Made by a program: the position numbers and the translations under genes. Below are positions 8,766 through 26,300 of a DNA stretch of 64,000 nt, in pieces; position 1 is the first letter of the stretch; each line of letters starts with the position of its first letter. Under the pieces are notes generated by a model, which did no database searches, was not told the DNA's origin, and worked only from the letters and a program-made list of their open reading frames with translations. The stretch comes from Terriglobia bacterium (GTDB lineage: Bacteria > Acidobacteriota > Terriglobia > Acidiferrales > UBA7541). The stretch is taken from NCBI GenBank assembly GCA_020072805.1, contig JAIQGC010000027.1:1-64000 (forward strand), given 5' to 3'.

Positions 8766-8915
8766 CCACCATGCGGTCAACAGGGAGGGTTTGACGACTC
8801 GACCAATTAAGATCACCGCGCTAATCGGGACTTAGGCTCTCGTCGGTATCCTGTTCGAGATTAGTTCCGGTTTGCCGACGGCTCGGAAGTATTATAGGTC
8901 AAGGAGTAGAGAGCC

Positions 8916-9488
8916 GTGACCATGCGTCAACACAAGGTTCACACTCACCTTCGCACTCAACTGGGCCGAGCCGCAGTGCAGATCTTTGCCGCCAATGATC
9001 GCATGAACCATATTCTTATCGAACATCTTGACCCTGCCGCCTGGAGAGCCAAACCGCCCGGCAAGCTCCGCACCATTGCGGCGATCTTCACGCACATGCA
9101 CAATGTCCGCTGCAAGTGGGTCAGGCTTACAGCTCCGCACCTGAAGATTCCACCACAGCTCCACCGCGCGCACTGCACGCCGCGGCAGGCCCGCGCGGGA
9201 TTGGCCAAGAGCGCCGCTCGCTGCGCGGAGATGCTCGCCGAAGCACTCGGCGGTTGTGGGGGCCGCGTCGAGAAGTTTCGCAGAGACGGCTGGGCTTCGC
9301 CTTGGCCGGTGGGCCCGGAAATGCTGTGCTACATGCTTTCTCACGAAGCCCACCATCGCGGGCAGGTGTGCATGCTCGCGCATCAGCTCGGATTCCCGTT
9401 GCCGATCCGGGTGACGTCCGGGATCTGGAATTGGGAAAAGCTGTGGAAAGAGTGCGGGTCGCCTGGCGGCCCCGGCTACGATTCTTAA
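8916..9488 (+). CDS. DinB family protein
   Basis: Helical, spaced His motifs 'IFTHMHNVR' and 'LSHEAHHRGQVCMLAHQLG'. Confidence 0.75.
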   Translation: MTMRQHKVHTHLRTQLGRAAVQIFAANDRMNHILIEHLDPAAWRAKPPGKLRTIAAIFTHMHNVRCKWVRLTAPHLKIPPQLHRAHCTPRQARAGLAKSAARCAEMLAEALGGCGGRVEKFRRDGWASPWPVGPEMLCYMLSHEAHHRGQVCMLAHQLGFPLPIRVTSGIWNWEKLWKECGSPGGPGYDS

Positions 9489-9537
9489 GGAATCGCTCAA
9501 GGGCACAGGCCGCCCGGGGCAATCTTGCCCGGCTGGG

Positions 9538-12408
9538 CTAGCGACGGAGGACTTGAACGGAGGAAAGAAGTTGCGCGGCTTTGCGCGAGACCAGTTCCAA
9601 GCCGCGGTCGTGGGTTTCCTTGGAAAGGGTCTCCAGTTGAACGCGGGCGGAGGTAGGATTGGCGTGGAGCTCAAGTTCGCCGAGCGCAAGGCGGGCATCG
9701 CACTCCACGGCATAATTTCCCTGTTTTCGCGCAGCGGCGAAAACCGTTTGAAGATGTGTCCTGGCGGCTGCAAAAGCCCTGCTCGAAACCTTTGCTGTGG
9801 AAGCGGTGGCGGTTTTCAGCCGGGCATCTTGAATCGCCAAGCTCATGGCAAGCGTCCAATCGGGAACTGAGTGCCCGATCTGTTCCGCACGGAGCAGGCT
9901 CGTGCGCGCGTCATCCAGTTGTCCTTCCGCCTGGAAAGCGCGGCTGAGAAACAAGAGAGCGCTACTTGCGCCGCCCGAATCCTTCTGTCGTTCAAAGACG
10001 GCAGACAGATCCCGCAGAGCTTTCTTCGCATCGGCAGTATGTCCTTGATCCAGGGCAACCTGCGCCAAATTCATTTGCATGCCGGGAATCATGTCTTGCG
10101 CATCGGTTTTGGTGTAGATGTCCAGCGCTTCCATGTACTTCTCCCGAGCCTCCGAGAGACGGTCTTCGGATTGCAAGAGATCGCCCATCACGCTGATTGC
10201 TGAAGCGTTCTGCCGCATGTTCATCTGTGCAGAACAGGCTCCTAGGGCACGTTCGATGTGATTGCGGGCTGTTTTTATATCCCCCATCGTCAGCCGGAGA
10301 GAAGCGATGCTGTAAAGTGCATAGCAGCCCCGTACGGGCGAAATAGACTCATCGATCTGGAGTGCTTCTTGGTACGCCTTATCGGCCGCACGGAGATCGC
10401 CGAGGGAAACCAGGACGCCCGCAAGGTTAGCTGTTGTCGCGGAAAGACCGCTCTTGGTGCCGGATTCCTCGTATTTCTTGTGCGCTTCTCGAAAACTTCG
10501 TGCAGCTTCATTCAGACGGTTCATCCTGACATAGGTATTGCCCATGCCGTTCAAAACGCCGCCGAGTAATTCATTCCCGCCTAGCTCCCGAGCAAGCTGC
10601 GATGCTTGTTCCAATGTCTCCAAAGAAAGCTGATAGTGGCCTTCATCGGATTGCCGGGCCGCTTTGAGCATGAGCGTTCTTGCGACTCCCGCACGATCTC
10701 CAAGAGTCTCGAAGACCGAGCGTGCTTCGTCGCACATGGCCATGGCCTCGGCGGGCCGGCCGACAAACAACCGATTGGTGCATTCGGAGACTCTTGCTTT
10801 GGCGTAGAGCAGTTTTTGTCCGCGCGCGGCTGCTTTTCGGGCAGTGCTCTCAATGAGTTCATATTGCCGCTGGCGATCATAGGAAGAAACAGCCCATTGT
10901 TCGTTCAGATCAATGCGCGGATCCTCGGACTGGGGGGGAGGCAATTTTCGAAGCGAGTGGAGAGTGGCGATGGCATCCTGAAGATGGCCGGCTTGAATTT
11001 GAGCAGCCGATAGAGAAAGGCCGCACTCCAGACAATCCGGGTAGTAGGCATAGAGCGCGTGGTAAGCAGAAGCGGCCTTTTCCATCTGGCCGAGAATTTC
11101 ATAATAGTGGCCTTCGATCAGCAATTTTTGTGTTTGCGAGAGATTCGCGGACAGATCCAGGGCTTTCCTTGCTTCTTCTTTCGCTCTTTGTCCATAGCCA
11201 AGTTGCTGCCAGGCATCCGAGAGCAAGGAGTGGGCCAGGGAAAACGTGGGGTCTGCCTGGACCGCTTGCTTTAGCAGTTCCGCGGCGCTGAGCGAATCGA
11301 ATAGGCGTAATCGATCGAGACCCAGAGAGTAGAAGCGAGCAGCTTCGCGGTTGGCCGGCAGGGAAGCGAACACCCCGGCCTCATCCGTTTGCTGAAGATC
11401 GGGAATTCCCACACGCCCGCGCAGCTTTCCGCCGATGCCGGAGACGAGTTGGAAAAGGTTCTGATTGCCACCGGTTTCGGCGATTTCCGTCAGGATTTCA
11501 CCGGTCCTTGCATCTTGCAGGCGCACGTCCAGCCGTAACTGGCGAGTTCCGTAGCCAGGCAGGCTGGTATAGGCGCCCAGCACCAGGAGATCGCTGTTGA
11601 GCGCGGTGCCGATGCGCGCAGCCGTGGATGGGCTAAGCGTATCCGTCTGCGACCAGGGAGCGGACAATTGCAGGTGGGAGACCTCTTCACCCGGTACGAG
11701 ACGCAGTTTGCCGCCCGCGGCCAGTTCGGTGCTCATCATTTCGGAAAGTGCCGTCCCGATCCAGGCCTCCTCCGGTTTGCCGGAAATGTTGTAAAAGCCG
11801 AGGACGGCGATTGCTGGGCGGGTAAGCACCGGCCGCATCGCTGCTTCGCTGGCGGTGGACGCAATTCGACTCCGGCTCTGCCAGCGATACGCCGCGATTC
11901 CCGTGAGAGCGAGAAGAAACACACCGAAGAAGATAGCGATCCATTGGCCCGATTGCGCCACGGCCTGCCGCGGAATTGAGCCCTCTCTTGCAGAATGCGC
12001 TGCCCTGTTCGCGGGAAGAGAATTGAGGTCTATCTTCAGGTTGGATGAATCTTCCCCGCGCGGCTCCTGGCTCACAGGCGCAATAAAACGGTACCCGCGC
12101 TTGGGGATGGTCTCGATGAAACGAGGCTCGTCCGAGTCGTCACCCAAGGCGACCCGTAATTTCTTTATCGCCGCGTTCAGCCCGCCATCAAAATCAACGT
12201 AAGTGCCGTCCGGCCAGAGCACCAGACGGATCGTCTCTCGTGTCACGACCTGACCGGGCCGTTCTACCAGCAGGGCCAGGATTCGGAAGGGTTGTTCCTG
12301 GAGCCTGACGCGGATTCCGTCGCGGTGCAGCAGGCCATTAGCCAAGTCGGCCCGGAAGGCGCCGAACCGTACCGTCGGAGATGACACCTCGGGGTTCTGC
12401 ATCGCCAA
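9538..12408 (-). CDS. CadC-like winged-helix regulator with TM segment and TPR region
   Basis: N-term OmpR/CadC wHTH 'LQEQPFRILALLVERPGQVVTRETIRLVLWPDGTYVDFDGGLNAAIKKLRVALGDD..FIETIPKRGYRF', TM, then TPRs. Confidence 0.9.
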   Translation of the reverse strand: MAMQNPEVSSPTVRFGAFRADLANGLLHRDGIRVRLQEQPFRILALLVERPGQVVTRETIRLVLWPDGTYVDFDGGLNAAIKKLRVALGDDSDEPRFIETIPKRGYRFIAPVSQEPRGEDSSNLKIDLNSLPANRAAHSAREGSIPRQAVAQSGQWIAIFFGVFLLALTGIAAYRWQSRSRIASTASEAAMRPVLTRPAIAVLGFYNISGKPEEAWIGTALSEMMSTELAAGGKLRLVPGEEVSHLQLSAPWSQTDTLSPSTAARIGTALNSDLLVLGAYTSLPGYGTRQLRLDVRLQDARTGEILTEIAETGGNQNLFQLVSGIGGKLRGRVGIPDLQQTDEAGVFASLPANREAARFYSLGLDRLRLFDSLSAAELLKQAVQADPTFSLAHSLLSDAWQQLGYGQRAKEEARKALDLSANLSQTQKLLIEGHYYEILGQMEKAASAYHALYAYYPDCLECGLSLSAAQIQAGHLQDAIATLHSLRKLPPPQSEDPRIDLNEQWAVSSYDRQRQYELIESTARKAAARGQKLLYAKARVSECTNRLFVGRPAEAMAMCDEARSVFETLGDRAGVARTLMLKAARQSDEGHYQLSLETLEQASQLARELGGNELLGGVLNGMGNTYVRMNRLNEAARSFREAHKKYEESGTKSGLSATTANLAGVLVSLGDLRAADKAYQEALQIDESISPVRGCYALYSIASLRLTMGDIKTARNHIERALGACSAQMNMRQNASAISVMGDLLQSEDRLSEAREKYMEALDIYTKTDAQDMIPGMQMNLAQVALDQGHTADAKKALRDLSAVFERQKDSGGASSALLFLSRAFQAEGQLDDARTSLLRAEQIGHSVPDWTLAMSLAIQDARLKTATASTAKVSSRAFAAARTHLQTVFAAARKQGNYAVECDARLALGELELHANPTSARVQLETLSKETHDRGLELVSRKAAQLLSSVQVLRR

Positions 12409-23430: not shown

Positions 23431-25176
23431 TTAAGCTGATGCCGATTGTTGAATCTGCTCAATCGCGTCCATGGCCAGTTCTTCATCCTCGTCGAAGACA
23501 GTTTGAAGTAATTCCTCATGGCGAGGACGTGGCCCCATGCCATGAAGACATGCAATCTCTCTTATGTAGGGGTCCGCGCTTCGCATCAGGGCCATGTCCG
23601 AACCCGACTTGGCGAACCGGACAATTTCCGACTGCACTCTCGATGAAACGCCGAGCTGCTTGATAGGAACGCCGTTGAAGAGGAAAATTGCCAAGCCCTG
23701 CTCCTTTATGTTGGCATGTACCCCATTGGCGAGGATGCATGTCTTGCCTGAGGCGTGCAGTGGCTGTGCCGCCGCTTGCGCGGCATTAGTCCCCAAGGAC
23801 AATAAATCGTCAATCTCACCGCTGGCTACAGCTTTCATAACCTGGGACTGGAAATGCAATTCCTTTATCTGCCCAGCATCGGAAGCTAGCCGCTGCAGAG
23901 CGGCCTCCTCGGCAATGTAAATTAGCCTTCCTGCAAGCCAACGCAGTTTTGGAATCCGGCGCTTCCTCTCATAGCCAGATAACGCAGCCGCACCTCCGAG
24001 AAGCTCCAGAAACTCAGTCTCATATTGGCTGCGTAGCATATTTGCGCGGTGGATAAAGGATCCAATATTCAGACCCCGCGGATTCCACCTAATCAAACGT
24101 CTCTTCGTATTTCGAATTATCCCCTCAAGAAAGTCTTGCTCGCGCACCACAGCCGAGTAATCCCGGACAGGGATGCGGAAAGACTCATTGCGAAATGCAG
24201 TCTGAAGCGCGTTACCTTGATCTGGATTCAGCAGGAGAAACAGCCTCAGGTCACTAATTAGCTCGTACCACATCCTTTGCCGTCCACTCCCGAAAAAATC
24301 ATCGCATCCACTGAGCCAGTCCTTGGTCGATATCTTGATGTTCTTTGGGGAAGAATCATCGTGGAGTTTGAATCCCAACTCGCTTAACCGAGTCTGAAGT
24401 AAATTCAGGGAGAGTTTTACCGCGTCCTGTTCTCCCACTAATGTAATGTCATCGACGTAGCGAAAATACTTCGCAGGGAGGTTTGCGGAAAAATGTTCGT
24501 CCATCTTCCTTAAAACGAGATTTGCAAGAAGATGGCTGAACATCGGACCCGTAAGAATACCACCTTCACCCGCTTTTGCCGCCATGGCATGATCTGCGAT
24601 CAGTTTCTCTCCCACTTGGCGATGGCGATTGCAGAGGCCGCTTGCCTCGCACTGCTCTCGCCATGCCTTCGTCGCCAGGCCCGTACTGATGGAAGGATAG
24701 AAGTGCTTAATGTCGACATATTGAACTGTTCCGTCAGGCGAATCCTTGCAGGCTTGAGAAATTCGACTGTCTCTTTTTCCCAAGCCACTAGAGTAGCGTT
24801 TGAAAATACCTGAACGGTTTTCTCCCTCATTGAGCGCGTAGCTGAAAACAACCCCGGGATTTGAGAATGCCTTGGGTTGCTGGGCACATTCTTTGAGTAA
24901 CGCGGTTTCCGCTAGGGCTTCGTTAGCAGTGGGCAAATAAATTGGACGGTGCAGCACATTCCCCTGATCATCAGTTTCCTTGAAATGCGAAACGCTAAAA
25001 TATGGAAAGCGCGTTCGGTTTAAAATGAGGTTTATTGAAACTTCCCGGGCCCAATGGTCGCTGCGAGCTGCCTTGTTTTCGAGGTAATATCGAAGTCCCA
25101 GGTAAGCGAGGGCGTCGCGCCGTCGGTATTCGTTCACCGACCGCACGGAAATAACGCATGGGCGTGTATTTTTCAT
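23431..25176 (-). CDS. Reverse transcriptase with ~250-300 aa C-terminal extension (UG/Abi/DRT-type candidate)
   Basis: 'VQYVDIKHFYPSIS' motif A, 'GGILTGPMFSHLLANLVLRKMDEHF' motif B, 'KYFRYVDDITLVGE' catalytic YVDD (24448-24459). ATG at 25176; the ORF track opens at an upstream TTG (25182). Confidence 0.93.
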   Translation of the reverse strand: MKNTRPCVISVRSVNEYRRRDALAYLGLRYYLENKAARSDHWAREVSINLILNRTRFPYFSVSHFKETDDQGNVLHRPIYLPTANEALAETALLKECAQQPKAFSNPGVVFSYALNEGENRSGIFKRYSSGLGKRDSRISQACKDSPDGTVQYVDIKHFYPSISTGLATKAWREQCEASGLCNRHRQVGEKLIADHAMAAKAGEGGILTGPMFSHLLANLVLRKMDEHFSANLPAKYFRYVDDITLVGEQDAVKLSLNLLQTRLSELGFKLHDDSSPKNIKISTKDWLSGCDDFFGSGRQRMWYELISDLRLFLLLNPDQGNALQTAFRNESFRIPVRDYSAVVREQDFLEGIIRNTKRRLIRWNPRGLNIGSFIHRANMLRSQYETEFLELLGGAAALSGYERKRRIPKLRWLAGRLIYIAEEAALQRLASDAGQIKELHFQSQVMKAVASGEIDDLLSLGTNAAQAAAQPLHASGKTCILANGVHANIKEQGLAIFLFNGVPIKQLGVSSRVQSEIVRFAKSGSDMALMRSADPYIREIACLHGMGPRPRHEELLQTVFDEDEELAMDAIEQIQQSASA

Positions 25177-25178
25177 TC

Positions 25179-26156
25179 TCAAGATTGAATAAGGTCAATC
25201 CGCATAACGGCCAATTTCACTCGAGCGGTCTGAGATGGATCGAGCGGCAGTCTGTATTCTGCCGAGCAAGTAGATATGGGCTCTCCAAAACCCAGGATAG
25301 GATTCTGCTTGGTAAATCGCTTCCAGGGTGCTTTTATCTTGTCCTTAAGCCACTGGAACAATGCCCCATCCGCAGTTGCGCGATTCATGTCCGGCTCAAT
25401 CCAAATCGCTACGCTATAATCCCCCGCCGCCGAGGCATGTCTAAATAACTCCGCAATCTGCGGCTGCGCCTCTTTCCTTTTCCCGTCCCTCTCGAGAAAC
25501 CCATTGAAATTTGCAATTACAAGAAGATTATGGGATGAGTTGGCCGAGAGAATCGTCGCACGGCGTATTAAGTTTGTGTTACTAACCGGATCGAGTACGT
25601 CCCAATGCATGAATTCTTCCCGGACGAAAATCGCCTGTTCCTCAAGTGAGGCACGTAGTTCTCCGAGCATTGAGATTGCATACGATCGTGCTGGTACTGA
25701 TGGCTCAGCGCCAATCAAGAATACCTCCAGCGGTAACCTGGGAAGAATCCCCGTCGCGCGAAGCTCGGCGATAGTTGAAAGCAACGCAAAAGCAGCAGCC
25801 CCCGCACCGCACGGCGCATCCGTAAGACACACGGTATTCCCAGCCATGCTCTTTATCATGGCGTTGGATGTAGATGTCGAAACTTGCCTCGGATCCAATA
25901 TTGCAAGCTCGACCCTTGCCACTGAACCGTCGAATGCCTGAGCAAAATGCTGGTCCGTGCGTTCCTGATTCAAACCACCAACCGGCGGGTTGTCTGAGGT
26001 CCGCTGTTGCGACAACGGCTTAAGAGCATACCGGTCGATTACGGTCTCGTAAGCTCTGGCGAGTATATGCGGGATGAATAGAACTTTAGGCGCTGATGCC
26101 CAGAGTGTTTCGGGAATGTGTGCTGGATCTAGGAGTCTGCCCTCATCGCTGGCCAT
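25179..26156 (-). CDS. SAM-dependent methyltransferase-like protein, co-transcribed with the RT
   Basis: Rossmann motif I 'NTVCLTDAPCGAGAAAFALLSTI', acidic 'FLIGAEPS', 'HNLLVIANFNGFL'; stop lies 2 nt before the RT ATG. Confidence 0.65.
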   Translation of the reverse strand: MASDEGRLLDPAHIPETLWASAPKVLFIPHILARAYETVIDRYALKPLSQQRTSDNPPVGGLNQERTDQHFAQAFDGSVARVELAILDPRQVSTSTSNAMIKSMAGNTVCLTDAPCGAGAAAFALLSTIAELRATGILPRLPLEVFLIGAEPSVPARSYAISMLGELRASLEEQAIFVREEFMHWDVLDPVSNTNLIRRATILSANSSHNLLVIANFNGFLERDGKRKEAQPQIAELFRHASAAGDYSVAIWIEPDMNRATADGALFQWLKDKIKAPWKRFTKQNPILGFGEPISTCSAEYRLPLDPSQTARVKLAVMRIDLIQS

Positions 26157-26300
26157 AAGGTTTAATCTCCGTGGAAACGGCGAGTTTAGGTTTTGCAGCT
26201 AAATTAAGCGCCTTTTACTCCGATCGAATCCGAGCGAGAGCATGATACCACTACAACAATTCACGCACAAATACAGTCTGGAAGATGCCTGTGCTTCGCG

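Follow-up and report, generated by a model that had tools for sequence, protein, structure and literature searches.

The window, the whole 64,000-nt stretch of DNA analyzed here, carries on its minus strand a reverse transcriptase (RT) gene preceded by a gene for a methyltransferase-like protein, and this raises the question of whether the two form a new RT-based defense system, as was proposed in a first-pass annotation. Both open reading frames were found at the coordinates given there, with the TGA of the partner gene 2 nt before the ATG of the RT gene, and the RT is 581 aa long from this ATG, as had been stated. The partner open reading frame is also real, while its reported length of ~326 aa counts the stop codon and has to be corrected to 325 aa. 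All of the motifs quoted for the two proteins, LTDAPCGAGAAAFALL, VDIKHFYPSI, GGILTGPMFSHLLANLVL and YVDD, were recovered. The features of the locus are listed below.

23431 to 25176, minus strand: UG36 reverse transcriptase, 581 aa from ATG; residues 8-579 match RT_UG36 on profile positions 4-556/557
25179 to 26156, minus strand: methyltransferase-fold partner, 325 aa plus stop, as predicted by AlphaFold2, Foldseek and an RT_UG35 N-terminal match
24688 to 24717, minus strand: RT motif A, VDIKHFYPSI; D155 is invariant (40/40)
24448 to 24459, minus strand: RT catalytic motif YVDD, residues 240-243, invariant (40/40)
23434 to 23445, minus strand: RT C-terminal tail SASA (S578, S580), the proposed protein-priming hydroxyl
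25797 to 25820, minus strand: partner motif I, DAPCGAGA, following a modeled beta strand (107-113); D113 in 34/37, G117 and G119 in 37/37
25704 to 25706, minus strand: partner motif II acid, E151; Glu or Asp in 37/37
25599 to 25604, minus strand: partner motif III, W185-D186; W in 35/37, D in 34/37 and N in 3/37
25392 to 25397, minus strand: partner E254-P255, 37/37, where beta 5 ends; candidate catalytic or substrate site
26157 to 26300, minus strand: leader of 144 nt from the resident RNase_H_2 gene to the partner gene, with no sign of structured RNA

The RT could alternatively start at a TTG at 25182, which would yield a protein of 583 aa and an overlap of 4 nt with the TGA of the partner gene; this stop/start overlap is the arrangement seen in most UG36 relatives. 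The source genome carries one copy each of the RT and the partner gene.

Judged by its sequence, the RT is a member of UG36, a group within the UG/Abi ("DRT") RTs. It matched the PADLOC profile RT_UG36 (PDLC03775) from end to end with an E-value of 2.8e-180, and the second-best PADLOC group was UG17 (DRT10), with an E-value of 9.1e-17. Phylogenetic analysis of 62 RT cores placed UG36 in a monophyletic group (support 98/96), apart from UG17, UG19 and UG35, with the window RT as sister to L012, from an Acidobacteriales MAG (support 95/76). The catalytic residues D155 and YVDD are intact in this RT, as they are in all 40 UG36 RTs compared. The profile match and the tree therefore bear out the assignment to the defense-type (UG/Abi) RTs; at the level of the RT, the claim of a new system did not hold, as the protein is a plain member of a group already catalogued by PADLOC, which lists UG36 as 'DRT' with a profile for the RT only and without a partner. 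The RT group is thus already known and the new part is the partner.

Relatives of UG36 were gathered with the RT alone, the partner being absent from the query. This identified 41 other UG36 loci, one on an Aliarcobacter plasmid (L004) and 40 on genome contigs (L006-L045), all of the latter from an alignment-based scan; L025 represents the same locus as L005. Single-sequence scans of the genome-contig and viral-contig collections gave no matches, the alignment scan of the viral contigs found other RT groups only, and a search of phage and plasmid records found none in the former and one in the latter. Judging by the record titles, the hosts represent about eleven phyla, namely Acidobacteriota, Pseudomonadota, Campylobacterota, Cyanobacteria, Bacteroidota, Verrucomicrobiota, Kiritimatiellae, Planctomycetota, Chloroflexota, Elusimicrobia and Riflebacteria. 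Across these hosts, the partner gene was found directly upstream of the RT gene in each of the 40 other UG36 loci for which sequence before the RT is available, a count that excludes L034, which stops at a contig edge. Where the two genes are separate, their spacing ranges from -11 to +5 nt in every pair except L021, and 26 loci have the 4-nt overlap. The RT and the partner co-evolve; their distance matrices correlate with r=0.935, a value as high as which was reached in none of 2000 permutations. The tight operon described in the first-pass annotation is therefore strongly conserved, and the synteny of the pair does recur across genomes.

L021 has a broken partner gene and L011 a split one, and in L010 the reading frame of the partner continues into the RT. 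The resulting partner-RT open reading frame of 902 aa (L010:6696-9404) could be a true fusion, but a single-base frameshift near the end of the partner is more probable, since the C-terminus of the partner is lost at the join. This open reading frame was kept out of the partner profile, which was built without RT open reading frames.

Two other accounts of the locus do not fit these data. An RT of a retron, a diversity-generating retroelement (DGR) or a group II intron would have the same core motifs, and weak partial matches to retron and group II models were indeed obtained; the NCBIfam matches cover only residues ~148-283, however, and their scores of 33-36 bits fall far below the cut-offs of 235-300, whereas UG36 is matched over the full length. 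Moreover, an Rfam scan of the window found a tRNA only, and no intron or retron RNA. This origin was rejected on the profile scores and the Rfam result, and we regard it as extremely improbable. Similarly, the partner and the RT might be chance neighbors that work separately. Adjacency in 40 of 40 loci with coupled spacing, together with the co-divergence of the two proteins, rules this out, and a fused counterpart is found in UG35 as described below; we give chance adjacency next to no credence.

Comparison of the partner with Pfam, NCBIfam and PADLOC did not identify a family of its own, and all 37 partner family members matched the N-terminal part of the PADLOC RT_UG35 profile. The AlphaFold2 model, based on the 37 members (pLDDT 94.2, pTM 0.93), shows the strands and helices in the order of a seven-strand class I methyltransferase. 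In the PDB, Foldseek matched it mostly to AdoMet methyltransferases, including DOT1L, OvoA and LCMT1/PPM1, along with a few other proteins, among them a GRAS protein and DUF89, and its matches among viral models were mainly methyltransferases as well; all of these structural matches are weak, with TM ~0.3-0.4. A class I AdoMet-methyltransferase fold is thus predicted for the partner with high model confidence, in agreement with its first description as methyltransferase-like. Conservation of the AdoMet-binding positions in motifs I-III (G-x-G in 37/37, the acid at 151 in 37/37 and D186 in 34/37) suggests that the partner is likely to bind AdoMet. Catalysis is less certain, because the structural matches are weak and the NPPY-type motif IV, (D/N/S)PP(Y/F), of the amino-DNA methyltransferases (N6-A or N4-C) is absent; at the position of motif IV, residues 216-219 read N-F-S/N-G.

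Further analysis showed that a related methyltransferase-like domain is also found in UG35 (PADLOC RT_UG35, PDLC03774), which, like UG36, combines such a domain with a UG RT. Unlike UG36, UG35 is a single fused protein of ~938 aa with an RT core that falls outside UG36 in the tree. A UG35 gene from another genome of the phylum (L107) encodes the methyltransferase-like domain followed by the RT in one open reading frame, and the domain matched the partner profile with an E-value of ~1e-15 over 77 columns, so that only a domain segment can be aligned between the two. A cyanobacterial UG35 (L046) also carries a methyltransferase-like domain in frame before the RT. In UG36 the methyltransferase-like protein and the RT are thus combined in an operon and in UG35 by fusion, so that the combination is not unique to UG36, and in this respect, too, the first-pass claim of a new system did not hold. 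No clear standalone copies of the partner were found in the phylum, where the only clear extra match was the UG35 fusion; four further matches with E-values of 4e-5 to 1e-4 appear to reflect general methyltransferase similarity. The UG35 of the genome that contains L107 appears to be split over two contigs, with the N-terminal methyltransferase and part of the RT on one (G275:C63:1-1731, L107) and the C-terminal part of the RT on the other (G275:C8:186815-188089, L110), which is probably due to an assembly break.

A second feature common to the UG36 RTs lies at their C-terminus. All 40 UG36 RTs have a Ser or Tyr within the last three residues, with Tyr in 22 of them, although this count treats related sequences as independent. 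The same was found for 35 of 126 neighbor proteins (28%) and, as a positive control, for 14 of 14 UG17 RTs. Residues that prime DNA synthesis have been reported in the C-terminal tail of DRT10 (S456 of 456 aa; PMC12632851), DRT9 (Y496/Y498; PMC12483538) and DRT3b (Y666 of 667; PMC13174585). As the conserved Ser or Tyr of UG36 is found at the place of these published residues, we infer by analogy that the UG36 RT may also use C-terminal protein priming.

Among UG RTs, those of Class 1 that have a helical, alphaRep-type domain at the C-terminus have been reported to be template-independent, and those of Class 2 to use a noncoding RNA (ncRNA) (PMC13174585). In the AlphaFold2 model of the window RT (pLDDT 89.9), a long helical C-terminal region was predicted, with matches of the Abi-P2, DRT6 and DRT4 type, and the nearest solved folds to the whole model were DRT6, DRT9, Abi-P2, UG15 and DRT4, at a global TM of only ~0.3-0.4. 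No conserved ncRNA beside the cassette was identified by comparison of flanking sequences, folding or spacing. The leaders of distant UG36 loci do not align and their flanking sequences are not shared; in eight loci, the cassette is bounded on either side by a plausible gene at a distance of less than 80 nt. In the window, the leader and the trailer fold no better than shuffled sequences (z-scores of +1.19 and +0.91, respectively), and Rfam found no match in the 144-nt leader. The Abi/DRT6-type helical domain and the lack of consistent room for an ncRNA favor, without proving, untemplated synthesis by the UG36 RT; the step is weakened by the fact that similarity in the RT core extends to Class 2 (UG17) and other groups. 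Two loci from the Arcobacter group (L004 and L040) share a stretch of 182 bp with 90% identity, starting ~100 nt downstream of the RT, which could represent plain relatedness or a noncoding element.

Taken together, these data are best explained by a horizontally acquired, two-component DRT cassette in which a C-terminally self-primed RT synthesizes DNA and an obligate partner acts in an AdoMet-dependent manner, a reading to which we assign a probability of roughly 0.6. The UG36 RT and the class I AdoMet-methyltransferase-fold protein would be produced by coupled translation from one operon as an obligate pair. Upon infection, the RT would start DNA synthesis on a Ser or Tyr in its C-terminal tail and stay linked to the product; this synthesis more likely needs no external template. 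The partner would bind AdoMet and act as an effector or a regulator, most likely one that methylates a protein or nucleic acid associated with the RT product. In the first-pass annotation, the partner was proposed to modify the cDNA/RNA product or a host target, and both are candidate substrates, with no preference for either in these data. Both the role of the cassette in anti-phage defense and the methyltransferase activity of the partner, with its putative substrate, are inferred parts of this model.

Two other models differ from this one in a single component each. The methyltransferase fold of the partner could be degenerate; the protein would then bind AdoMet or another ligand but catalyze no reaction, and would serve as a sensor or assembly subunit gating the RT. 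The N-F-S/N-G in place of a canonical motif IV and the weak structural matches are consistent with such a role, and the obligate pairing and the fusion in UG35 would suit a structural subunit; by comparison, motifs I, II and III and the invariant E254-P255 have been kept over about eleven phyla, which is beyond what a bare scaffold would need, and we therefore consider a noncatalytic partner unlikely, if clearly worth keeping in view. The other model concerns the RT, which could copy a dedicated ncRNA into a repetitive, C-terminally primed cDNA, as Class 2 members DRT9 and DRT10 do. UG17 (DRT10) was the second-best profile match, and the C-terminal Ser or Tyr is common to DRT9 and DRT10. The tight gene spacing on both sides of eight loci, the leaders that fail to align among distant members, the unremarkable folding of the window leader and trailer, and the long C-terminal helical domain with its Abi-P2/DRT6/DRT4-type fold matches nevertheless argue against a dedicated ncRNA beside the cassette, although an ncRNA within the coding region or elsewhere is conceivable; templated synthesis also represents a doubtful, minority alternative to the self-primed, more likely untemplated synthesis proposed above.

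Among characterized systems, DRT10 (UG17) and DRT9 (UG28) resemble the proposed UG36 cassette in being defense RTs with DNA primed on a C-terminal Ser or Tyr (PMC12632851, PMC12483538), and in DRT10 the RT gene, too, comes with an obligate partner. Both differ from the proposal for UG36 in their use of an ncRNA template, and DRT10 is partnered by a SLATT-domain protein, whereas the UG36 partner has a methyltransferase fold. By predicted RT fold, with its helical C-terminal domain, UG36 is nearest to Class 1 (AbiK, Abi-P2, AbiA, DRT4, DRT6 and DRT3b), if only at the low TM values given above; unlike UG36, none of the Class 1 UG/Abi RTs compared has a methyltransferase-fold partner. The defense RTs studied so far differ mainly in the DNA they make and in how a partner turns this DNA into immunity. 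In the papers and libraries searched, the type of partner found in all UG36 loci examined with upstream sequence has not been described for defense RTs. The universal UG36 partner and the C-terminal Ser/Tyr rule were likewise undescribed in the libraries and open papers searched, a scope that did not include the founding UG/Abi classification (Mestre et al. 2022), and no experimental study of UG36 was found within the literature searched. The conserved Ser or Tyr would extend the priming rule of DRT9, DRT10 and DRT3b to another group. If the partner does methylate the RT product, a single immune system would couple DNA synthesis to methylation. It is possible, though we hold it only tentatively, that UG36 and UG35 represent a distinct kind of DRT, in which a dedicated AdoMet-dependent enzyme methylates the C-terminally attached cDNA, or a target specific to infection that this product recruits, to yield an immune signal or weapon.

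The genomic context of the cassette shows signs of horizontal acquisition. The GC content of the cassette is 51-52%, compared to 62-63% in its flanks. UG36 is sporadic: among the genomes sampled, it was found in 2 of 396 from the phylum and in 1 of 399 from the class, counting the source genome of the window. A congener (G563) has the flanking genes in synteny but lacks the cassette and carries another gene between them, indicating that this is a variable insertion site. The gene found there (L113, G563:C73, ~8860-9950) presumably encodes a GH10-type glycosidase, judging by its translation. In the window, the neighbors of the cassette are ordinary chromosomal genes and do not form a defense island. 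The copy on the Aliarcobacter plasmid follows LmuA/LmuB (Lamassu) and a type I restriction-modification locus, and other UG36 relatives adjoin HsdR, HsdM or AbiE genes; in a plain count, type I S subunits (HsdS) made up 5 of 126 near neighbors of UG36 loci. Several relatives thus do lie beside defense genes, as had been anticipated.

Additional genes follow the RT closely in some relatives. In all three cyanobacterial UG36 loci, the RT is followed after 11-26 nt by a conserved gene of the RNase_T exonuclease family (L019:10752-11432, L023:10770-11480 and L024:10742-11422; the Pfam match is shown for L019 and L023), which could perhaps act as a third component of the system or, like ExoI in DRT9/UG17, as a silencer. 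Elsewhere, a gene for a DUF3800 protein (L036:10745-12202) is located 13 nt downstream of the UG36 RT and a gene for a UvrD-type helicase (L031:7615-9708) begins 0 nt downstream of it.
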